DNA from: Christensenellaceae bacterium
Lineage (GTDB): Bacteria; Bacillota; Clostridia; Christensenellales; DTU072
Direction of reading: 5' to 3'
DNA length: 41,699 nt
Assembly (NCBI GenBank): GCA_031259965.1
Contig: JAIRKT010000024.1
Location: 1 to 41,699 of the forward strand
The notes under the pieces were generated by a model, which ran no database searches, was not told where the DNA came from, and worked only from the letters and a program-made list of their open reading frames with translations. Shown piece by piece: positions 184 through 40,998 of the stretch (positions within the stretch are counted from its first letter, which is position 1; the number at the start of each line of letters is the position of its first letter). Both the position numbers and the translations under genes were made by a program.

Positions 184-867
184 ATGGAAAATAACAATTC
201 GAAAAAGGGAATGTTTAAATTGTTTTTAAAAAAAAATCTATATTATATAGTAATGTTCGTATGCGTGCTAGGAATAGGTTCACTGATAATTGCAACTGTA
301 ATTGCAAATAAGATACCAGATCCTGATGATATTATAGTAGATGATTCCCCTATTGAAATACAGCCTACAATAGATGACCCCACAGTAATGCCTGATGAAC
401 CTTTAACGCCCAGTGAAGATGTGGTTGTTCCACCAATTGAAGCCGAACCTATAATATTTACTATACCCACAGAAGATTGCACAATAGTTAGAAATTATAG
501 CATGGCAGCACCAATTAAATGGGAGACACTGGGCCATTTTGCTGTCCATAATGGTATAGACTTCGCAGGACCACAGGGTGCTCCTGTAAGGGTTGTTTTT
601 GATGGAACTGTTGTGCAATTATCTTATGACATACTAAATGGACATAAGGTTGTAGTGGATCATGGTGATGGGCTATTGACAACATATGGGTCTTTATCTG
701 AACCAGTTGTGACAATCGGACAAGTTTTATCTAGTGGTGAGGTTATAGGCGAACTCAGCAATTCTGCTTCTTCAGAGTTAGAACTAGGTGCACATCTCCA
801 TTTTTCAGTGATTCACAACTCTGAATATGTAGATCCTTTGCTATACCTGCCTATAGGCGATAAATGA
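184..867 (+). CDS. spoIIQ: M23 (LytM-type) peptidase, SpoIIQ-like
   Basis: 227 aa. One N-terminal membrane segment (about residues 20-41) is followed by an acidic, proline-rich linker (45-90) and a C-terminal LytM/M23 domain (about 105-222). The zinc ligands of M23 peptidases are visible: HNGID (H122, D126) and HLH (H204, H206), so unlike Bacillus SpoIIQ the site looks intact, as is known for clostridial SpoIIQ. In the family, SpoIIQ sits in the forespore membrane and bridges to SpoIIIAH across the intermembrane space during engulfment. The start is fixed by an AGGAG seven bases upstream of ATG. The next gene downstream is spoIVB, which supports a sporulation role. A vegetative cell-wall M23 endopeptidase is the alternative. 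Confidence 0.72.
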   Translation: MENNNSKKGMFKLFLKKNLYYIVMFVCVLGIGSLIIATVIANKIPDPDDIIVDDSPIEIQPTIDDPTVMPDEPLTPSEDVVVPPIEAEPIIFTIPTEDCTIVRNYSMAAPIKWETLGHFAVHNGIDFAGPQGAPVRVVFDGTVVQLSYDILNGHKVVVDHGDGLLTTYGSLSEPVVTIGQVLSSGEVIGELSNSASSELELGAHLHFSVIHNSEYVDPLLYLPIGDK

Positions 868-1316
868 TCACATCTTTCTTCTGTGTAACTTAAAAAGTGA
901 TTACAATTTAACTACTTGCTCTTACGTTAATATATTTTAACGTAAGGGATTAACAAGTACTAAAAATTCAATAAACATATTGTTGCCTATTTTTTAATTA
1001 ATCTGCTATTGATCTTTATTAGTACCAACTTTATAAATTTTGGACACGCCAAGCATATTATTTTCATTAATTTTCCACCCAAAATCAAATTATTATTTTG
1101 TTAATTTTGTATTTCCATTATATGTAATACTTTACTAATTGTGCAATAAAAGTGAACGATATAATCATTCTTTAGTTTGGTTGCCAGAGATAAATCATGC
1201 AAACCAGCTAATGTTTGCATAATTTTATAAACATCTCACAAATTATAATTAACATACTAAATGCTTAATCAAACTCTCAATTATAAATTTTTGTTTTTTA
1301 AGTATTAAAGGGGCAA
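868..1316. other. Intergenic region between spoIIQ-like gene and spoIVB, with one hairpin
   Basis: 449 bp, very AT-rich and without a supportable gene. It holds a perfect 9-bp inverted repeat (CTTACGTTA at 921-929 against TAACGTAAG), with outer ACTTG/CAAGT arms at 914-918 and 954-958. There is no T-run after it, so it is not a textbook terminator. I could not define a forespore-type promoter for spoIVB by eye. Confidence 0.5.
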
Positions 1317-2351
1317 ATGAAAATCTCAAAAAAAATATTGTATATAATTTTACCAATTATTTTACTTTTATTTCTGTCAGTAACTGCATTTCAATCCATG
1401 ATTGTGAAGGCAGAAAATAATGAGCAAGTATATTTAGGTGGGCAACCTATAGGGCTATTACTTCGCTGTAAGGGCGCAATTGTTAGTGAATTTAAGGATA
1501 TAGTAACCCCTGATGGGAGTTGTAATCCTGCAAGAGATGCAGGAGTTATGATAGGCGATAATATTATCATGGCTGGTAATATTTCGATTAATTCGCCTGA
1601 AAACCTTATAAAACTTCTATCAAATTTAAGTGCTACGCAAGAGAACATAACTCTTAAAATATCTAGATTAAATAAGCAAATTGAGATAGTTGTAAAACCC
1701 AAATTAGACATCGTAACTAATACGCTAAAACTTGGAATAATGGTGCGTAATGAACTAACTGGAATTGGGACTTTAACATTTGTCACAGCAGATGGCCTGA
1801 GATTTGCAGGCCTAGGCCACAGAGTATTTGACGGATCGAGTCTTACAAGCAATAATTATAATGAAGGACATATATATACTGCAGAGATAATTGATAGTGT
1901 AAAGGGGCAAATTGGTGTACCTGGAGAACTGCGAGGAACATTTAACTCGAGCAGCATTAAATCTGGAAAACTTGACAAAAACGAATGGTATGGGGTTTAT
2001 GGTGATTCAAAAACAATACTACACTCGGGTCGCCCAAAAATCAAATTAGCGAGCAAAAATAGCGTTAAAAGAGGCACTGCCTATATTTACACAACCATAG
2101 AAGGTAAAATCCCTGAAAAATACGAAATCAATATTGTAAAAACAATGCAGCAAGAGACACCTGGCGAAAAGGGTATGGTAATTAAAGTAACTGACAAGAG
2201 ATTGATTAATAAAACTGGAGGAATTTTACAGGGGATGAGTGGTTCGCCTATTGTACAAGATGGTTTATTAATCGGTGCTGTAACTCATGTATTTTTAAAC
2301 GATCCTACCCTAGGCTTTGGAATTTATATTGACTGGATGCTCAATCACTAA
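1317..2351 (+). CDS. spoIVB: SpoIVB serine peptidase (family S55)
   Basis: 344 aa. An N-terminal membrane anchor or signal (about 5-30) precedes a PDZ-like region (about 40-130) and the S55 protease domain. The SpoIVB triad is recognisable: His in GLGHRVFD (H168), Asp in VTDKRL (D293) and Ser in GMSGSP (S308). Their spacing is close to that of H236, D363 and S378 in B. subtilis SpoIVB. In the family the protease is secreted from the forespore and cleaves SpoIVFA to trigger pro-sigma-K processing. The AAAGGGG ribosome site is five to six bases before ATG. The protein is shorter than the ~425 aa Bacillus form but complete at both ends. Its 3' end overlaps the convergent next gene by 11 bases. 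Confidence 0.9.
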   Translation: MKISKKILYIILPIILLLFLSVTAFQSMIVKAENNEQVYLGGQPIGLLLRCKGAIVSEFKDIVTPDGSCNPARDAGVMIGDNIIMAGNISINSPENLIKLLSNLSATQENITLKISRLNKQIEIVVKPKLDIVTNTLKLGIMVRNELTGIGTLTFVTADGLRFAGLGHRVFDGSSLTSNNYNEGHIYTAEIIDSVKGQIGVPGELRGTFNSSSIKSGKLDKNEWYGVYGDSKTILHSGRPKIKLASKNSVKRGTAYIYTTIEGKIPEKYEINIVKTMQQETPGEKGMVIKVTDKRLINKTGGILQGMSGSPIVQDGLLIGAVTHVFLNDPTLGFGIYIDWMLNH

Positions 2352-3419: not shown

Positions 3420-5168
3420 TTAAGTTTCATCATTAATTTCAGAATATTCTTCATCAGGTTTGGATTTGTATTGATCATTATTAGAATCTATCCTTACATT
3501 TTGTGCAACCATAATTGCCTTATCATCTTTTCTCTCATACTTAAATTCGCCAGATGATTGGAAACCATTACCATTCTGAAAGTTTATAGTGCCATTTTCA
3601 CCATTATATGTTTTTCCATCTGATTGCACGACCATACTAGAGCCTATATCAATGTATACATAACCTGTTTTGTCTGCATCTGGATTATTATAATCAAGTT
3701 CAAACACAACTCCATCAGCATCAAGCGTAAGAGTTTTGCCATTAAGCATAAAGTTCACAGCTATTGGAATTATAAACTGGTTATTATCGCTAGTATCAAA
3801 TGTTACATCGCCAGTCAATACTAGAGTGTCACCTGCATTCAATGTTATATTATTTTGTTGAATGTAAGAGTCAAAACTGGTAAAATTGCCACTTATTTCA
3901 TAAAGTTTTCCCATATTAACAGTGCTACTGTTACCATTTAATATGTTCAAATATGTATCTAAAATATCCAGAGTAGATGAATTATAAAAAACTGATTTGC
4001 TACGACTGCTTGAGTTTTCTAGAGTGTTACCAAAATCATACATCCCCACTTTCTCTAAGCGAAAAAGAGATGTCTTTGAAACAGGCCCTGTTATCGCAGT
4101 TGAAAAACCAGATAATGTAGTATCAGCTGGAACAAGGCCCATAAAACCAACATCATAATTGTCAAATAGATCTTTTAGCTTCAACTCCTTCATTCTTTGG
4201 TTCATTTCAGCAGAAGTTAAATGTGTATCTCTCAGTGAGCTTAGTATTTTTTCCTCACCCTCAGTTTCCGCGCCTAGCAAATCGCCTATAGTACAGCTTT
4301 CGATAGCAGGAGTTAGAGCTTTATTTATATCTTTAATTTTAACAGGTTCACCTTCTGTGCCGCCCGAATAAGTGCCATTACGAAGTTTTACAAGCACTGC
4401 GTTATCATTATCATTAATCTCAAATAAATCAGTTATTTTCATGTTATCAACAGTATCATTTAAATCCTTAATTGGGGTGTCTGAGAATTTTCCTAGTATA
4501 CTGTCATCTCCAGATGTCCCCATAATATCACCAACCGTCATATCCCCTATCATATCCATTATGCTATCGCCTTTTAGCTGTGCAATAGACAATACACCAA
4601 TTTTTTGCAAAATGGCGTCACTAGCTTCCATTTCAGCAGTAGCCTGATCATCATAAACTACTGGAATCAGTTGATCTATTCTTAGATCCTCAAATGAAGA
4701 AAATTGGCCTAGTAATGGTTTGGTCAAAAATTCGTTGTCTTTAAATAATGGAATATCATCTGGTAATTGTATATCTAAGATCTCTACAATAGGCCCCAAA
4801 GACAAGGTTTCAATTGTATTATCCATTATTTTTGACAATGCGCCATTTCTTATGACGTCTGCGTCAGCGCCAAACGATGCTGCTAAAAACGCAGACAGTG
4901 CTCTTGTTCCTATCGCGGATTCAAACTCCGCAACAGTCATATTAGAAAGATTACTAAATGATTTAATTAAAGGAAATATTGTATTTATCAGCTCAAAAGA
5001 AAGTTCGTCATCTGTCAATCCGGTTTTATCTTTGTCAATTTTTATTAGATCCGCAATATCATTTACAGTGTATGAAGACAATACTAGATATCCCACTAAG
5101 CCGACACTTCCAACTATAAGAGCGATACCTACTATAAAGCCAATTAAAAATGAAACAAAACTCTTCAT
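3420..5168 (-). CDS. Membrane-anchored repeat protein of unknown function
   Basis: 582 aa, not recognised. A single N-terminal membrane segment (about 5-30) predicts a large extracytoplasmic domain. The middle part carries recurrent short units of the pattern I/L-x-DLF/IMG/LLG: TVGDIMG, KITDLFEI, TIGDLLG, LKLKDLFD. The C-terminal third is Ser/Thr/Asn/Gly-rich with alternating hydrophobics, suggesting a beta-rich or beta-helical surface domain. GGAG precedes the ATG. It is in line with the CvpA-like gene upstream (19-bp gap) and the 2Fe-2S gene downstream, so it is probably transcribed from the promoter at 6168-6195. A surface adhesin or envelope scaffold is possible; this is inference only. 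Confidence 0.6.
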   Translation of the reverse strand: MKSFVSFLIGFIVGIALIVGSVGLVGYLVLSSYTVNDIADLIKIDKDKTGLTDDELSFELINTIFPLIKSFSNLSNMTVAEFESAIGTRALSAFLAASFGADADVIRNGALSKIMDNTIETLSLGPIVEILDIQLPDDIPLFKDNEFLTKPLLGQFSSFEDLRIDQLIPVVYDDQATAEMEASDAILQKIGVLSIAQLKGDSIMDMIGDMTVGDIMGTSGDDSILGKFSDTPIKDLNDTVDNMKITDLFEINDNDNAVLVKLRNGTYSGGTEGEPVKIKDINKALTPAIESCTIGDLLGAETEGEEKILSSLRDTHLTSAEMNQRMKELKLKDLFDNYDVGFMGLVPADTTLSGFSTAITGPVSKTSLFRLEKVGMYDFGNTLENSSSRSKSVFYNSSTLDILDTYLNILNGNSSTVNMGKLYEISGNFTSFDSYIQQNNITLNAGDTLVLTGDVTFDTSDNNQFIIPIAVNFMLNGKTLTLDADGVVFELDYNNPDADKTGYVYIDIGSSMVVQSDGKTYNGENGTINFQNGNGFQSSGEFKYERKDDKAIMVAQNVRIDSNNDQYKSKPDEEYSEINDET

Positions 5169-29519: not shown

Positions 29520-30371
29520 ATGATATTACTCGATGGAAAATGTTTATCTAATCAAATTAAAGAAGAAATAGCTACTGAAATCAGTGCTCTCTATGAAAAA
29601 GATAGTTCTCATAAAATCGGGCTAGCGGTAATTCTAGTCGGTGATAATCTGGCAAGTCAAATTTATGTTAAAAACAAAATCACTGCTTGTTTGCATGTTG
29701 GTATTAAATCATTCCAATACAATTTAAAAGAATCAACTACTGATGATGAATTATTAACTCTTATAGATGAATTAAATGATGATGATAATGTAAATGGTAT
29801 TTTAGTTCAACTCCCACTCCCACCTCACATTGAGGAAGAAAAAATACTAGCAAAAATAGATCCTTTAAAGGATGTTGATGGTTTTACACCATATCAAGTA
29901 GGGCTCTTAACAATTGGTCAAAAATCATTTGTCCCTTGCACACCTAAAGGCATAATAACGCTCCTTGAACGTAATAAAATTGAAATTGCAGGCAGGCACG
30001 CAGTAATTGTAGGGCGTTCAAATGTAGTAGGCAAACCATTAATGCAACTTCTACTTCAAAAAGACGCGACTGTTACAATATGCCACTCTAAAACCAAAAA
30101 CTTATCTGATATAACAAAAAGTGCGGATATCTTAATCGTTGCAGTAGGCAAACCCTGCTTTATAAAAGCTGATATGCTTAATCAGGGTGTAATATTGGTC
30201 GATGTTGGAATAAATAGAGTAGATGGCCGATTAGTAGGCGATGCTGATTTTGAAAATGTTAAAGACAAATGTGCATACATAACACCTGTCCCAGGTGGAG
30301 TTGGGCCTATGACAATTACTATGCTTTTGCAAAACACAGTGGAGGCATATTATGCTAGAAAAAACAGATAA
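29520..30371 (+). CDS. folD: Bifunctional methylenetetrahydrofolate dehydrogenase/cyclohydrolase
   Basis: 283 aa, normal length. The active-site SxxYxxxK is SQIYVKNK, followed by NGILVQLPLPPHI, the KDVDGFTP segment, PCTPKGI and the NADP-binding VIVGRSNVVGKPL. It interconverts methylene-, methenyl- and 10-formyl-tetrahydrofolate in one-carbon metabolism. It lies 70 bp after nusB and overlaps xseA by 20 bases, so it is part of the same operon. Confidence 0.97.
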   Translation: MILLDGKCLSNQIKEEIATEISALYEKDSSHKIGLAVILVGDNLASQIYVKNKITACLHVGIKSFQYNLKESTTDDELLTLIDELNDDDNVNGILVQLPLPPHIEEEKILAKIDPLKDVDGFTPYQVGLLTIGQKSFVPCTPKGIITLLERNKIEIAGRHAVIVGRSNVVGKPLMQLLLQKDATVTICHSKTKNLSDITKSADILIVAVGKPCFIKADMLNQGVILVDVGINRVDGRLVGDADFENVKDKCAYITPVPGGVGPMTITMLLQNTVEAYYARKNR

Positions 30372-31554
30372 ATGCATAAGCGTATCTGATCTAAACACCA
30401 TAATTAGCGCAACTGTTGATGCTATTGAATATCTGCCACCAGTTCTGGGTGAAATCTCTGGCATCGCTATGCATGGCGCACATCTATACTGTACACTTAA
30501 AGATTCAGATTCATTAATATCCTTAATAATGTATAACTATCGCGCTTCAAAATTCATACCTTCGAATGGTGACAAGGTTATTGTAAGGGGACGCCTTAGT
30601 TATTATGCTAAAAACGGAAAATTAAGTTTTATTGCAACATCAATTACAAAAGTTGGCATGGGGAATCTGCGTATAGAACTCGAAGCCTTAAAAACAAAAC
30701 TACGAGAGGCTGGTTATTTTGATGAATCACATAAAAAGAAAATACCCACATATCCCACTAATGTCTGTGTCGTGACAAGCGAAACTGGTGCGGTAATAAA
30801 CGATATCGAGCGTACGATAAGACATGTTAATCAAATGATCAAACTTACTTTGATTAACACAAATGTACAAGGCACAAGCGCAGTATCAAGCATTTGCAGG
30901 GCTTTAGCACATGCAGACACGCAAAACTATGATGTTATAATTCTAGCGCGCGGTGGTGGTTCGTTTGAGGAATTAATGCCCTTTAATGATGAAAAACTAG
31001 CAATCCTTATATACAATCTCAAAACTCCCATCATATCCGCGATTGGACATGCAGAAGATTGTCCCATTTCAGACTTTGTGGCTGATCTAAGAGCAAACAC
31101 ACCTACGGCAGCTGCTGAAACTATTGCATTCTCTGTGCAAGATTTATATTCAAATATAATATCAAACGTGAATGGCATTTTTTCATCTATACAAAGCAAA
31201 CTAAATAAATCTGTTTCTGAAATAAAATATGCTTCTAACAATATTTATTATACATTATCAGCTAAACTTAAATCGCTAAAATCAACAATTTCTGATGACC
31301 TTAAAGATACATATAATAGCATATTAACACAATTAACTGAAAAACTAAATAATATTAATACCATTTCTCGTTTGCTCAAAGAGAATAGTCCTACTAATCT
31401 ATTTAAACAAGGTTATTTCAAAGTAACACACAACAACAAAACAATTTCCACTATTACCAATTTGAAAATTGGTAATACAATTTCTTTATACTCATCAGAA
31501 GGGATTATAAATGCCGAGATAACTCAAATAATTCAAAATAATAAGGAGATATAA
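30352..31554 (+). CDS. xseA: Exodeoxyribonuclease VII large subunit
   Basis: 400 aa. The N-terminal OB-fold DNA-binding domain (about 12-105) precedes the catalytic region with TSETGAVINDIERTIRHVN, LARGGGSFEELMPFNDE and SAIGHAEDCPISDFVADLRA, then a long coiled-coil C-terminus (about 270-350) that contacts XseB. Exo VII degrades single-stranded DNA in repair. GGAGG lies seven bases before ATG inside folD. It is followed directly by xseB. Confidence 0.96.
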   Translation: MLEKTDKCISVSDLNTIISATVDAIEYLPPVLGEISGIAMHGAHLYCTLKDSDSLISLIMYNYRASKFIPSNGDKVIVRGRLSYYAKNGKLSFIATSITKVGMGNLRIELEALKTKLREAGYFDESHKKKIPTYPTNVCVVTSETGAVINDIERTIRHVNQMIKLTLINTNVQGTSAVSSICRALAHADTQNYDVIILARGGGSFEELMPFNDEKLAILIYNLKTPIISAIGHAEDCPISDFVADLRANTPTAAAETIAFSVQDLYSNIISNVNGIFSSIQSKLNKSVSEIKYASNNIYYTLSAKLKSLKSTISDDLKDTYNSILTQLTEKLNNINTISRLLKENSPTNLFKQGYFKVTHNNKTISTITNLKIGNTISLYSSEGIINAEITQIIQNNKEI

Positions 31555-31555
31555 T

Positions 31556-31783
31556 ATGAGTGAATTAACATTCGAACAAAAATTACAGAAATTAGAAACG
31601 CTAGTTGCAAAATCAAAGGATTCCAACTTAACATTAAATGAGTCCTTAAATACTTTTTCTGAAGCTATTAATGCAGCATCTGAATGCATAACTGAATTAG
31701 AAGCAAAAAAGACTGAACTCTATAATCTTAAAATTGAAATGGACAATCTCACAAAGTCTGAAGAAAAGGATGACTCACAATGA
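31556..31783 (+). CDS. xseB: Exodeoxyribonuclease VII small subunit
   Basis: 75 aa, typical for XseB. It opens with LTFEQKLQKLETLV, equivalent to the conserved FEEALxxLExIV, and forms a helical hairpin (EAINAASECITELEAKKTEL). It coats the coiled coil of XseA. AAGGAG lies six bases before ATG. Its stop overlaps the ispA start (ATGA). Confidence 0.95.
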   Translation: MSELTFEQKLQKLETLVAKSKDSNLTLNESLNTFSEAINAASECITELEAKKTELYNLKIEMDNLTKSEEKDDSQ

Positions 31784-32595
31784 TGCTTGAATTCGAAAAA
31801 TTTGTGAATTCTTATGTTTATGGATTGCGCACACAAACTGACGAAAAACTAGCTAGCGCGATTACATATGCTCTTAATGGTGGTGGCAAACGTGTGCGAC
31901 CTAAATTAATGCTCCTTACGTCAGAGGTTATTGGATTATCTAAATCATTAATCATGCCTTTTGCGTTAGCAATAGAATGTATTCATACCTATTCATTAAT
32001 ACACGATGATCTGCCCGCTATGGATAACGATAATTTCAGACGCGGAAGGTTAACTGTTCATAAGGCATACGATTATGCGACTGCAATACTTGCAGGTGAT
32101 GCCCTCCTGAATGCAGCATTTGAAGTTGTTTTAAACCAGTCCAAAGAAATTCCAAATCTTATTCGTGCCGCATCTACGCTTGCATCTGCGTCTGGCGCAA
32201 GAGGAATGGTAGGTGGACAGGCTCGAGAATTGAGTAAATCATGCCACACCACCAGTGAATTGCTAGAAATATACAGCAAAAAAACTGGAGCGTTAATTTC
32301 GGCTTCTATTGTTATACCATGTCAAATTTGTAATATAAATGAAAACGAACTTGCTCTTTTCGAAGAAATTGGAAACACAACTGGTTTAATATTCCAACTA
32401 GTAGATGATATATTGGATATGGAAAAAGAACTCGGTTTGGGCAAACTTACATTTGCAACATTAATGGGTAGTGAAAACACAGAATCCTTTATTAAAGAAA
32501 AGACTGAATATTTACATCGTCTGTTTTCAAAATCAAAATACAACTGTTCCTGTTTGATAAGATATATAGAAGAACTAACATATAGGTCGGTCTAA
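31780..32595 (+). CDS. ispA: Farnesyl/geranyl diphosphate synthase (short-chain prenyltransferase)
   Basis: 271 aa, a little shorter than the ~295 aa norm, mainly in the region after the second aspartate motif. Intact motifs include GGGKRVRPKL, the first Asp-rich motif DDLPAMDND and the second DDILDMEKE. It condenses IPP with DMAPP/GPP to give FPP for undecaprenyl-phosphate and quinones. It starts at the ATGA overlap with xseB. A convergent tlyA-oapA-OLE unit lies 52 bp downstream. Confidence 0.93.
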   Translation: MMLEFEKFVNSYVYGLRTQTDEKLASAITYALNGGGKRVRPKLMLLTSEVIGLSKSLIMPFALAIECIHTYSLIHDDLPAMDNDNFRRGRLTVHKAYDYATAILAGDALLNAAFEVVLNQSKEIPNLIRAASTLASASGARGMVGGQARELSKSCHTTSELLEIYSKKTGALISASIVIPCQICNINENELALFEEIGNTTGLIFQLVDDILDMEKELGLGKLTFATLMGSENTESFIKEKTEYLHRLFSKSKYNCSCLIRYIEELTYRSV

Positions 32596-32647: not shown

Positions 32648-33385
32648 TTAACTATTTGCTTTTTCAAATAATGCCAAAATTTCTCTGTTTTTGTCTGCAA
32701 ACGGATGAGGTGCATCTATCACACCACCATTTCTAAGGCCCAGTGCCTCACCAAACGCTATAACATCGTCTCGCGCTTTTTCAACTACTTTTTGATTAGT
32801 TACCATTCCATTTTTATTCAGATATTTACGCCCTACTTCAAACTGAGGCTTTATTAATGTTATCATTTTTGTATTATGATCCATAAATTGTAGTAGTGCA
32901 GGTAATATTAAACGCAGTGAAATAAAAGAGACATCAACTGTTATAATATCTGCTTTGATCCCCAGATCCTCAAAAGTTAAAGACCTCGCGTTAAGTTTAT
33001 CTTTTACACATACTCGTTCATCATTCTTCAATTCATCAGGGAGGGCACATTGTGAGACGTCAACAGCAAAAACCTTTTTAGCACCGCTCTTAATCAAAAC
33101 ATCAGTGAAACCTCCGTTTGATGCTCCTATATCAATTGCGACACAATTCTGAAGGTTAATGTTAAAGTATTCTAGTGCTTTTTTTAGTTTAATACCACCT
33201 AATGAAGCATAATCGCCAATGTTTGATATCAATATAGCGTCATCTGCTGAAACAGCGCGCGCTACTTTGAACTCAACAAGATCATTAACCTTAACCATTC
33301 CTAGCTTAATCAAATTGGATGCGTGTGTTCGAGATCGCGCATAACCATTTAAATACAAAAAAACGTCTAGTCTCATACAATTCAC
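32648..33385 (-). CDS. tlyA: TlyA-family rRNA (cytidine-2'-O)-methyltransferase
   Basis: 245 aa. An N-terminal S4 RNA-binding domain (about 5-60, RLDVFLYLNGYARSR) is followed by an FtsJ-like SAM methyltransferase domain with IDIGASNGGFTDVL as the SAM-binding loop and the catalytic K-D-K-type residues in DKLNARSL and LIKPQFEVG. Start is GTG at 33385, overlapping the oapA stop (GTGA), or ATG at 33376, which better fits the family N-terminus. In Firmicutes tlyA lies with the ispA and recN genes; here it is the last gene of the OLE-oapA unit, on the strand opposite ispA. Confidence 0.92.
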   Translation of the reverse strand: MNCMRLDVFLYLNGYARSRTHASNLIKLGMVKVNDLVEFKVARAVSADDAILISNIGDYASLGGIKLKKALEYFNINLQNCVAIDIGASNGGFTDVLIKSGAKKVFAVDVSQCALPDELKNDERVCVKDKLNARSLTFEDLGIKADIITVDVSFISLRLILPALLQFMDHNTKMITLIKPQFEVGRKYLNKNGMVTNQKVVEKARDDVIAFGEALGLRNGGVIDAPHPFADKNREILALFEKANS

Positions 33386-34020
33386 TTGTTCTTAGAAAAC
33401 ACACTTAAAACTTTGGAGACAAACAATACAACTTCTTTTGATTTTTTTACGGCAAACACCTTTACTATCGCTTTCCCACCAACTGTTAGCGCTGCAACAA
33501 TCCCAGAACAAATTATGCTAATCCAAAAAGGCAGTGACCCAGCGCCAGTCCCTTCTCCAATTGTTTTTAACAATATAGCAGCTGTGCATGCCCCACTTAT
33601 AATTCCGCATATGTCACCTATGACATCACCACATATGCTACTAACTCGTTCAGCGTTTTTAACGAGTTTTACGGCAATCCTTCCACCTTTTATTTTTCTG
33701 GATGCCATAGCAAGTAAAGGAGGCAAATCACACGATGTTGTAGCAATTGCCACTGCGTCGAATAAAATATTTATACAAATTAGTGTTATAAGTAAAATAA
33801 ATGAGATTGCGACATGCGCATATGTTGCGGTCAATTCAGAAATATACGAGAAAAAACACGATAAAAATAGGGTTATTACAATTATCTTAATAGTCCATAT
33901 CGTAATATTCGAGCGCTTCGAATTGTTGCGTGGTTTTGATTTCTGCTTATTTTTATCACCACTTGAGGACTTGTCATCCTTTTCCTTCAAAGTGTGTGCC
34001 GCAGGTATTCTATATTTCAC
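33382..34020 (-). CDS. oapA: OLE-associated membrane protein OapA
   Basis: 212 aa. The N-terminal ~38 aa is strongly basic and polar (KSKPRNNSKRSN), as suits an RNA-binding tail, followed by about four membrane helices (about 40-62, 70-95, 138-158, 166-188) and a basic C-terminus. The central NAERVSSICGDVIGDICGIISG segment is the conserved core of the family known in Bacillus halodurans as OapA, the membrane partner of OLE RNA. The family has distant likeness to CorB/CNNM-type magnesium exporters. Start is GTG at 34020 with GGAG upstream. It lies ~120 bp after the OLE RNA 3' end and overlaps tlyA by four bases. Naming rests on the sequence core plus context. Confidence 0.82.
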   Translation of the reverse strand: MKYRIPAAHTLKEKDDKSSSGDKNKQKSKPRNNSKRSNITIWTIKIIVITLFLSCFFSYISELTATYAHVAISFILLITLICINILFDAVAIATTSCDLPPLLAMASRKIKGGRIAVKLVKNAERVSSICGDVIGDICGIISGACTAAILLKTIGEGTGAGSLPFWISIICSGIVAALTVGGKAIVKVFAVKKSKEVVLFVSKVLSVFSKNK

Positions 34021-34139
34021 TTTTCTCCAGATATCATCATGTTAATGAATCGCTTAATTAAAATATACTAAATTATGAACAAAACAAATCTAAAATTTCT
34101 ATAAATTGCGACTTTTGTTAAATTTGTATAAACAATTAA

Positions 34140-34681
34140 TAAAAGATGGCGGATATGCGAGTAAACCTTGCGCCATAGGTTCGGTAGGATTTCCCTGTTT
34201 CATACCTGCTGTCGCCAACCAGGCGGTTTCCCTTTAAATTCAACAACGCCAATAGTTTTCTATTAGCATAACCGAATCGCCACTTAGAGCACACTATAAT
34301 CCCCGTATATCCAGACAGTCTAGAAATTTTCTTTAACAGAATTGAAATAACCTATCCTCTTTTGCGTTAATGAGTTTCAGATTGCTCAAGAACCATCCGC
34401 ACATTCCGCGCAAGGCAAGCTACACTGCACACAGCCATTTATTACCGCGATGCAGGTTTATCCCCGAGCAGTAAATTGTTCATCCACCAAATCGGGTCTC
34501 CACGAAAATTGGGTCGGCTCTCGCATGCCATTGCAAGACGCCCAAAAATCTTAACTCCCAGCACCAACCCAGATTTGGGCAATCCAAGCCAACACAAGGA
34601 ACTTCATCGATATGCTCTTTTACGGTATTTTAACCCCGTCCTCAACTATTTCAATCCTGACTAGAATACTGCGCCATCGAT
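34140..34681 (-). ncRNA. ole: OLE RNA (ornate large extremophilic RNA)
   Basis: About 540 nt, non-coding on both strands and more G/C-rich than its flanks. It has a near-consensus promoter immediately upstream and lies directly before oapA, the known OLE partner, near ispA and tlyA as in other Firmicutes. Visible pairing: ends GAUGGCG (34672-34678) with CGCCAUC (34145-34151); a 7-bp stem at 34540-34546 with 34574-34580; UUCGGU (34271-34276) with ACCGAA (34180-34185); an AAUAG/CUAUU hairpin at 34251-34264; and CCUG/CAGG and GGUA/UACC stems in the 3' domain. OLE RNA of ~600 nt forms membrane-associated ribonucleoprotein with OapA and affects alcohol, cold and magnesium tolerance. It lacks RNase P and tmRNA signatures. 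Confidence 0.82.
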
Positions 34682-34687
34682 ATTAAA

Positions 34688-34716
34688 ATTATACAATAAA
34701 ATTTAAAAAAATACAA
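34688..34716 (-). promoter_or_regulatory. Promoter of OLE RNA
   Basis: On the minus strand TTGTAT (34711-34716), a 17-bp spacer and a perfect TATAAT (34688-34693). Transcription would start near 34681, just before the terminal GAUGGCG arm of the RNA. Confidence 0.8.
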
Positions 34717-34828
34717 CTTTTAATTAATATTATGTTGTCCATTAAAAAGTTGATTTTGTTATTTTCTATATCGCCTCAGTTTGCTACCATTTTTACTGAA
34801 TGTTAACACTCCGTTTTTAGCCAAAAGC

Positions 34829-35762
34829 AAAACTTGCATTTTTTGTCTGGACAGGTGTAGAGAAGTCCACACCATAAACGAACACATAAAAAATGTGTTC
34901 ACTGATTGTGAACTAGCGGATGAGGCAACTATTCGGAATTTCCGAATAGTTCAAATCGAAGGTTCACGCCAAATAACGAGGGACGTGAAGCATTACAGTC
35001 TGCAAATGATTATCGCTGTGGGCTTTAAGGTCAATAACGATCGCGCTGTGCGGTTCCGTAAATGGGCAAACGGCATCGTGAAGGATTACACGATTCAAGG
35101 CTGGGTAATGGACGAGGAACGACTAAAAAACGGAGGAACGATCCTAACGCAGGAATATTTCGATAGACAGCTTGAAAAAATCCGCGAGATACGCCTGTCA
35201 GAGCGGCGTTTTCATCAAAAAAATAACCGACAACCTACGCCACCGCCCTCGACTACGACAAGACCGCTAAGACCACGCAGGAATTTTTTGCCAAGGTTCA
35301 AAACAAACTGCATTTTGCGGTTCACGGCAACACGGCGCCGGGGTTATCTACACCCGTGCCCACTCCGAGTGCGGGCATATGGGACTGACTACCTGGGAAG
35401 ACGCACCAGATGACAAGATCCAGCGACGCAATGTTATCATTGCCAAGAACTACTTAACTGAAGAAGAGATGCGCTCTCTTGAGTTGATTGTGTCGGCGTA
35501 CCTTGACCATGCCGAGCGCAGGACTTTGGCACATATTCCTATGACAATGGAAGACTGGGCGAAGCACCTTGACCTTATTTTACAGGCCGACGGCAACCTG
35601 ATTTTAACCAACGCAGGCAAGATTTCAGCGCAAATCGCAGAGCAACATGCGCTGACTGAATTTGAAAAATACCGTGTAATACAAGACAGGCTGTTTGAGA
35701 GCGACTATGACAGGTTCATCTCCCAACTAAACAGTTTGGAAGAGAAATTACAACGCGACTGA
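34829..35762 (+). pseudogene. rhuM-like (virulence RhuM family) gene, frameshifted
   Basis: RhuM-family sequence can be followed across frames: REVHTINEHIKNVFTDCEL, then FRKWANGIVKDYTIQGWVMD and LSERRFHQK; after a shift at an A-run near 35222 and another near 35240 come YATALDYDK and EFFAKVQNKLHFAVHGN; after a shift near 35342 come VIYTRA and MGLTTWEDAPDD up to the stop at 35762. The N-terminal end is also damaged. Base composition is clearly richer in G+C than the neighbouring operons, with codons such as CGC, CTG and GCG, which suggests acquisition from another genome. RhuM proteins are encoded on pathogenicity and mobile islands; their reaction is not known. Confidence 0.8.
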
Positions 35763-39426: not shown

Positions 39427-40920
39427 TCATGTTGATCGCCGTTGCTGATTCATAGCTGGTCTTGCCATGTTCGGTGGCATCATCATTTGTCCAGCTGGAA
39501 TTGGCCGCTGTGATTGTGGGGCTCCACTAGGAACAGCCGGCCCACTTACAGGAATACTTTTACCTGGTTTGGTAGGATAAGCATTACCTTTAAAGGTATG
39601 TGCCCTATTTCCTTTAGGAACGAATGAAGGTGATTTAAATGCCCGGTTTTTAAACAGTTTTGGTAAAAACATATATATAAGTACTAAACCAGCAAACAAA
39701 ACTAGCAAATAGTTAACACCTATCAAACCAGTTTTTTGTAAAAAACTATCCCACGAGAAAGTAAAGTATGTAGTAATGTCTTTGCTTAATACAGAATTTT
39801 CAAAACTACTCATAAGCGAAAAGACAGGACATATAATAGTCATTATTAAACTAACTAATAATATTATTGGTATTGCGTGAAAACGCCGCGATGTATGAGT
39901 AAACATACGCGCAATATTAATTATAACCTCCAATGCACAACAGATCATCGCAATGTAAAAGAAAATGACAGTGCCGTATGTCGCAAGATTATTAATTATA
40001 TTCACCGCATTCCACTTGCCATTGGCATCCTTTTGAATTTTTAGTGTGTCCTCCCTTTGAGATACAAACATTCTATAATACCAAGAAATGCGCGCTCTTT
40101 CAGTTGGAAACAAAAAATCTTCTAGAGATTTAATCTGATACTTGCTAGCTATGTCAGTATAAAAAACAGCTTTTAAAACATCATTTGCGGTAATGTTTAT
40201 AGAAGTCATGTTTAAATCTTTATAAAGCCAAACAGATTCAGGCCTAAACCCTGCCTCAGTTTCATACAGCACACCCTTTTTAATTGCGTTTTCAGGTTGA
40301 GCAAATGTGCCTGATGGCCATAATCCATCATTCAATACTAGAAAATCATCCTCTTCTGTTAGCTTAAAATATAACACACTCGTTGGCATGATTCTCGGAA
40401 TATCTACAGTCTCAGCAGTTTCATTTAAAGATGTTTCAATACTTTCTATTGTAGCAGAAGGCACAATTAAACTGAAAGCTGAAATAAGTAAAAACAAAAT
40501 TGCAAGTATGAGTGAAATTAATGGAAGTGCAACACCATAATAGCGTGATCTTCGAAAGTAAGCATCAAAATCAAAATCAATACTTTCGTATGAATCGACA
40601 TATTTCCCAACTTTATTAGGAACTTTTCCAGCTACTGTAGAATATGTACCGATCCCACGATTCTTGGCCATTTGGTAAGAGGCCATTTGATTTGCTAAAA
40701 TGTCACTGTTATAATTACCAGATTCAATTTTAACTAAAAGTCTCTTGTATTGAGCACGGCGCGTTTTTAGCCTTGCTCTTGAATATGGAGAAGATGCTTC
40801 ATTAATATCATAACGCAACTCGCCTATTTTTCTTTTGAGCAAGTCAACAAGGATAGCTTCATCGCGTTCGCTCCAATGCGAACTAAATTGTTTATGGTTT
40901 GCTAATCGCTCTTGTGCCAT
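39427..40920 (-). CDS. 4-TM membrane protein with proline-rich C-terminal tail
   Basis: 498 aa from ATG at 40920, which has AGGAG six bases upstream (a TTG at 40926 would abut that site). Not recognised. A basic, helical N-terminus (about 1-125) is followed by TM1 (about 130-155), an external domain of ~160 aa (155-310), TM2 (about 318-340), TM3 (350-372), TM4 (402-420) and a Pro/Gln/Met-rich tail (about 435-498, SGPAVPSGAPQSQRPIPAG). The topology repeats that of the proline-rich cluster at 6.3-10.1 kb, although without the QLTPIVQP motif. It has its own consensus promoter and is not obviously part of cysteine metabolism. Confidence 0.6.
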   Translation of the reverse strand: MAQERLANHKQFSSHWSERDEAILVDLLKRKIGELRYDINEASSPYSRARLKTRRAQYKRLLVKIESGNYNSDILANQMASYQMAKNRGIGTYSTVAGKVPNKVGKYVDSYESIDFDFDAYFRRSRYYGVALPLISLILAILFLLISAFSLIVPSATIESIETSLNETAETVDIPRIMPTSVLYFKLTEEDDFLVLNDGLWPSGTFAQPENAIKKGVLYETEAGFRPESVWLYKDLNMTSINITANDVLKAVFYTDIASKYQIKSLEDFLFPTERARISWYYRMFVSQREDTLKIQKDANGKWNAVNIINNLATYGTVIFFYIAMICCALEVIINIARMFTHTSRRFHAIPIILLVSLIMTIICPVFSLMSSFENSVLSKDITTYFTFSWDSFLQKTGLIGVNYLLVLFAGLVLIYMFLPKLFKNRAFKSPSFVPKGNRAHTFKGNAYPTKPGKSIPVSGPAVPSGAPQSQRPIPAGQMMMPPNMARPAMNQQRRST

Positions 40921-40998
40921 ACGCAACTCCTTTTAGAAAATAGTCACTTCGCCAACTTTTTTTAGTTGAAAATCAGAGAAGAAATTTAGATACAATAT

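Follow-up and report, generated by a model that had tools for sequence, protein, structure and literature searches.

An OLE RNA lacking the P9.3 dimer contact in a Christensenellaceae bacterium, and OapA proteins that have outlived OLE among its relatives

The window analyzed here, the whole 41,699-nt stretch of contig JAIRKT010000024.1 (GCA_031259965.1) from a Christensenellaceae bacterium, encodes a genuine OLE RNA, a member of the known family, which has undergone a lineage-specific loss of the P9.3 arm. We consider it very probable that the locus comprises a functional OLE RNA with its own promoter, followed by oapA and tlyA, and that this RNA, having lost P9.3, forms a membrane ribonucleoprotein (RNP) with OapA; its expression, RNP assembly, dimerization and function we infer. 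What is new in this work is that a dimer contact has been lost in nature and that, among the relatives, OapAs outlive their RNA. The features of the locus are as follows.

29520-32595 (+), folD-xseA-xseB-ispA, convergent with tlyA here; normally upstream of OLE and codirectional with it.
32648-33385 (-), tlyA-type gene for an rRNA methyltransferase, sharing 4 nt with oapA.
33382-34020 (-), oapA, 212 aa, GTG start behind GGAGAAAA; DxxxD motif (DVIGD) at residues 132-136; residues 101-112 a candidate segment for contact with OLE.
34130-34693 (-), OLE RNA, full Rfam span; expected transcript from about 34681 to 34140.
34145-34151 (-), 3' strand of the outermost helix (helix 1), CGCCAUC, covarying in relatives.
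34205-34238 (-), P13 region with GGCGAC loop, the OapB-binding region, retained (PMC12265935).
34356-34418 (-), truncated P9 region, 63 nt versus the usual ~92-109, from the Rfam match and the alignment of relatives.
34380-34394 (-), short hairpin GGUUCUUGAGCAAUC in place of the P9.3 arm and its kissing loop (bridge B3), from the alignment and P9 measurements.
34522-34535 (-), P6.1 loop AAUGGCAU, partner in dimer bridge B2, retained (PMC12265935).
34575-34582 (-), P5.1 loop GCCCA, partner in dimer bridge B2, retained (PMC12265935).
34602-34609 (-), CGAUGAAG, the J4a/5 part of the OapC-bound k-turn, retained (PMC9723947, PMC12286853).
34627-34632 (-), A-rich L4 loop (UAAAAU), dimer bridge B1, retained; located by the Rfam match, the bridge being defined in PMC12286853.
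34672-34678 (-), 5' strand of the outermost helix (helix 1), GAUGGCG, covarying in relatives.
34688-34716 (-), promoter-like site TTGTAT-17-TATAAT, read from the sequence; TATAAT kept in relatives.

A preliminary description had proposed, from the letters of the DNA, that the structured non-coding region before oapA is an OLE RNA, and had named a search with the Rfam covariance model as the check. When this was run, the OLE model (RF01071, curated cut-off 50 bits) matched the minus strand at 34693-34130 over its full span (model positions 1-616) with 408.5 bits and an E value of 1E-116, and the Rfam scan placed no other family on the OLE stretch. The Rfam model, the covariation described below and the protein family evidence on OapA agree on this identity. 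A single OLE copy, the one in the window, was found in the organism's own genome, a draft assembly of 2.24 Mb in 127 contigs that is 89% complete. Of the named relatives in the genome collection, Candidatus Stercoripulliclostridium species (Bacillota, Clostridia) are the closest, with OapA proteins that are 54-56% identical. The plasmid and phage collections searched held no DNA similar to the locus, which therefore shows no sign of mobility.

The secondary structure scored in the alignment was made up of the pairs of the Rfam model and those of the outermost helix, 142 pairs in all. In 30 relatives, 89.4% of cells were paired, compared with 40-43% when the pairing partners were slid by 1-3 columns; the structure was derived from one of the aligned sequences, so this percentage is biased toward it and carries less weight than the counts of double changes. 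Both partners had changed in 690 cells (30 relatives), versus 231 in shuffles, and 100 of the 142 pairs changed on both sides. The pairing of the two ends noted earlier, GATGGCG (34678-34672) with CGCCATC (34151-34145), was borne out as covarying, with double changes in five of the six scored pairs and 99.4% of cells paired in the 30 relatives. This outermost helix lies outside the Rfam model, which leaves those positions unpaired. Thermodynamic folding of the OLE sequence gave a z score of -1.78, and RNAfold alone did not recover the OLE fold. The structure is shown by homology and covariation; thermodynamics alone would not suffice. The sequences of bridges B1 and B2, of the J4a/5 k-turn element and of the OapB site are all kept in the window OLE.

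The length of about 540 nt given previously holds when counted from the -10 element to the end of the terminal helix, the Rfam match itself covering 564 nt. The RNA thus falls short of the typical ~600 nt, and relatives are mostly 590-620 nt; this length is typical for OLE and not obligatory, shorter variants being accepted members of the family (PMC11332333). Several very short "OLE" matches (in G031, G052, G019 and G066) were rejected as minimal OLEs because contig ends cut them. Elsewhere among the relatives, a strongly diverged OLE at L089 (approximately 4237-4808), detected by nhmmer only with 94 bits, has kept a P9 arm with a GGCC loop, and an unusually long OLE of 736 nt (L036, 7056-7791, genome G008; 256 bits) has expanded P7 and P9.

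It had also been suggested that the shorter copy would show which domains are dispensable, and this proved correct. Three stretches are short relative to the model: P7, a small hairpin at model positions 424-435, and the tip of P9. The shortening of P7 and of the 424-435 hairpin is common in the family of the window OLE and accounts for most of the shortening apart from P9. What has been lost specifically in this lineage is P9.3. In the window (G000) the P9 region is 63 nt long, in G001 62 nt and in G007 58 nt; none of the remaining 114 OLE RNAs, out of 117 measured, has less than 92 nt. The tips of the three short P9 arms are unrelated small hairpins with the loops CUUGAGC, GGGG and UUUU. On the OapA tree two losses of P9.3 are needed, one in G000 plus G001 and one in G007, and G002, of the same genus, is intact. 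G001 and G007 lack P9.3 yet contain clear OLE RNAs; that of G001 is 92% identical to the window RNA, with the pairing maintained and the same deletion.

In cryo-EM structures, two OLE molecules meet symmetrically through their P9.3 loops in a kissing contact, bridge B3, whose palindromes were reported to switch among GGCC, GAUC and AGCU (PMC12286853). We counted palindromes at the apex position of P9. A palindromic tetramer was present there in 102 of 106 RNAs with a P9 of normal length, compared with 23.5 in shuffles; GGCC (74), CGCG (18), GCGC (4) and GTAC (3) together made up 99 of the 102. A search for any palindrome in the P9 stem-loop was dropped, as it separated real from shuffled P9 poorly. 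CGCG, GCGC and GTAC are compensatory switches additional to those named in PMC12286853, and they support B3. The loop at the P9 tip of the window RNA, CUUGAGC, had a self-pairing energy of -3.4 kcal/mol, versus -11.1 for UUGGCCAA and -6.3 for CGCG loops; it could provide a residual loop contact with weak self-pairing. The dimer of the window OLE would be held by B1 (A-A pairs of L4) and B2 (P5.1/P6.1 loops) alone, and the P9 arch would be dispensable in this lineage.

We weighed whether the window OLE is instead decaying, the P9.3 deletion being a first step of loss that left an RNA no longer able to dimerize or function. The repeated loss of OLE in this order, the strong maintenance of B3 elsewhere and the rearrangement of the block by inversion all fit such a course. 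However, the conserved columns, the promoter and oapA are intact, G001 retains its pairing alongside the same deletion, G007 has a different tip hairpin of its own, and the organism's genome holds no MpfA replacement; we regard decay as very improbable. The deletion might also be an assembly error at the hairpin, since the genomes concerned are all drafts and long hairpins can collapse. But it is common to two species with 92% identical RNA, a third genome has it with another tip sequence, and assemblies from the same family contain P9.3 hairpins of equal strength in intact form, which leaves this explanation hardly tenable. That the element is another structured RNA or a cis-regulatory leader of oapA has next to no probability: it does lie directly upstream of a gene, but the full-length OLE match, with no other Rfam family, refutes this, and OLE is not obligatorily a leader, as it lies apart from oapA in L092/G058. 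A functional OLE RNA that has lost P9.3 is the reading we retain.

Comparison with described OLE classes places the window RNA near the full-length form (Halalkalibacterium halodurans, Clostridium acetobutylicum), with which it shares all stems of the Rfam model, the conserved loops, the outermost helix, the oapA neighbor and the OapB region. Unlike that form, it lacks P9.3 and the L9.3 kissing loop (B3), and its block is inverted relative to folD-xseAB-ispA. OLE variant 1 (TANB77 type; Fernando and Breaker 2024, PMC11332333) likewise has a P9 shorter than that of full-length OLE and a somewhat shorter P7; in this variant, however, P7, P8 and P9 are all shortened and the OapB site is often missing, whereas the window organism keeps P8, the P13 OapB end and oapB. 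A score of 408.5 bits would fall in the full-length bin of PMC11332333 (at least 390), the model used there differing from ours. With OLE variant 2 (RF39 type) the window RNA shares the core conserved nucleotides; that variant is without P7 and P8, both of which the window OLE has.

As in the window, oapA directly follows OLE in nearly every relative examined, and 77 of 80 named loci have OLE upstream of oapA. The close relatives G002 and G003 have, on a single strand and up to the ends of their contigs, the order folD-xseA-xseB-ispA-OLE-oapA-tlyA. The window and G001 have the OLE-oapA-tlyA block inverted relative to folD-xseAB-ispA, and in the window tlyA and ispA converge 52 nt apart. OLE cannot be read from the folD operon here and depends on its own predicted promoter. 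Elsewhere, L048 and L176 (G046) are a further case of separated partners, OLE and oapA lying on two contigs and no oapA hit adjoining the OLE. On the other side of the window OLE, at 34781-35762 (+), a RhuM-family gene in two overlapping frames (Pfam Virulence_RhuM 1-97 and 150-249), probably frameshifted, diverges from the OLE promoter. Farther along, at 39427-40926 (-), a 499-aa membrane protein had no Pfam or NCBIfam match.

The preliminary description had credited OLE with a strong promoter. Both elements are present, TTGTAT at 34716-34711 and TATAAT at 34693-34688 with 17 nt between them, but only the -10 is consensus-like: the -35 agrees with TTGACA at three of six positions, and for this reason a standard promoter scan did not list the site. 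In 29 of 46 relatives a perfect TATAAT lies within 30 nt of OLE, whereas 500 shuffles gave 3.1 on average and 10 at most. Judged by this conservation, the -10 of the OLE promoter is real, and OLE of this order therefore generally has its own promoter. The predicted window promoter is unexceptional in this comparison, being common to many relatives, including those with OLE in the canonical operon.

The gene next to OLE (33382-34020, minus strand) was confirmed as oapA, and the partnership is backed by protein family evidence. Its DxxxD motif (D132-VIG-D136) is invariant in the alignments, and the only Pfam match was a weak one to CNNM (31.1 bits). A sequence-profile search of the PDB matched no chain; a fold comparison with the predicted structure (mean pLDDT of 85) did, the model aligning with archaeal CorB 7m1t at a Z score of 12.8 over 131 residues (root mean square deviation of 2.7). 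The fold matches 7m1t, 7m1u and 7cfg, and these CNNM chains score well above the unrelated helical rows (Z of at most 8.5). OapA thus has a CNNM-like membrane domain, as do the CNNM-family transporters MpfA and CorB, but it differs from them in having DxxxD and in being without the CBS and CorC_HlyC domains. According to published work, P2 and P4a are where OLE dimers bind OapA at the membrane, and the dimers are required to withstand stress from Mg2+, cold and alcohol (PMC12265935, PMC11332333). By analogy with H. halodurans, the window OLE is most likely part of a membrane-bound RNP with OapA, in which OLE dimers at the membrane would place the divalent-ion transport that is probable for OapA under RNA control during stress.

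Genes for other RNP components were sought in the organism's own genome. Between map and infA lies the OapB gene, whose KOW protein matched PDB 7k9b, "OLE-associated protein B" (E value of 3E-11), and a bS21 gene is present. The assembly gave no match for OapC (YbxF). An L7Ae-family (ybxF-like) gene lies beside rpsL in G001, G002, G003 and G007, and rpsL too is missing from the assembly, so the stretch where an OapC gene would lie is missing from it. CorC_HlyC/MpfA likewise had no match in the assembly. Among 58 relatives, MpfA was present in 10 of 11 that are OLE negative versus 8 of 47 that are OLE positive (Fisher P of 8E-6, kinship ignored); this anticorrelation of OLE and MpfA gene content has already been published and is repeated here on a new sample. 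At 184-2351 (+) the window also encodes an M23 peptidase and a SpoIVB-type peptidase (S55), pointing to sporulation, which is reportedly correlated with OLE.

It has been suggested that OLE and OapA perhaps never occur apart (PMC11332333). We found 23 oapA loci without OLE, in 14 of which the slot after ispA is empty. At L172-L175 and L189-L198, from at least three lineages, oapA sits in the canonical folD-xseA-xseB-ispA cluster without OLE, with gaps between ispA and oapA of ~30-100 nt. In G015, G024, G038 and G040, a whole-genome search with all candidates scored gave no OLE at E values up to 10, and oapA follows ispA by 33-91 nt, which leaves no room for OLE. These first four cases also carry MpfA-type proteins. 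Ten further genomes of family f6 have an intact folD-xseA-xseB-ispA-oapA-dxs cluster in which OLE is missing, and in family f26 (L199-L207; genomes of 0.8-1.3 Mb) an OapA-like protein is encoded near xseA with no adjoining OLE. For f26, and for f6 apart from G038, which the fuller search covered, genome-wide absence of OLE is likely; there the search scored three candidates per genome, and OLE could lie apart from oapA, as in L092. One f26 genome, G081, has two OapAs, one OLE free and the other separate and OLE linked. L092 was itself rejected as an orphan oapA because its genome has OLE elsewhere. At L199-L202, L204 and L207 the OapA-like gene is just upstream of a weak, subthreshold match to the ribosomal protein L20 leader.

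We aligned 122 OLE-linked with 23 OLE-free OapAs, the latter from a few clades and so amounting to a handful of independent comparisons rather than 23. Nine positions were conserved by residue class in at least 85% of the first set and in at most 50% of the second, and all nine fall within residues 101-112 (PLLAMASRKIKG, window numbering). DxxxD and the remaining core are kept in the OLE-free OapAs. In the OapA model, residues 101-112 form a short helix (99-107) and a linker between TM2 and TM3, a segment that is presumably cytoplasmic, judging from the distribution of positive charges. We infer that this candidate segment contacts OLE RNA. In the most recent OLE losses, G015 and G024, the segment is altered only slightly. 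We see about an even chance that the joint proposal is right, namely, that OLE works without the P9 arch, B1 and B2 sufficing, and that OapA has an OLE-independent function, with residues 101-112 as the OLE contact.

Natural RNAs minus exactly one dimer contact show which contacts are essential and offer ready-made constructs for cryo-EM and mass photometry. The survival of OapA without OLE contradicts the suggestion that the two may never occur apart (PMC11332333), and the residues relaxed in such OapAs point to one particular stretch of 12 residues by which OapA may contact OLE.
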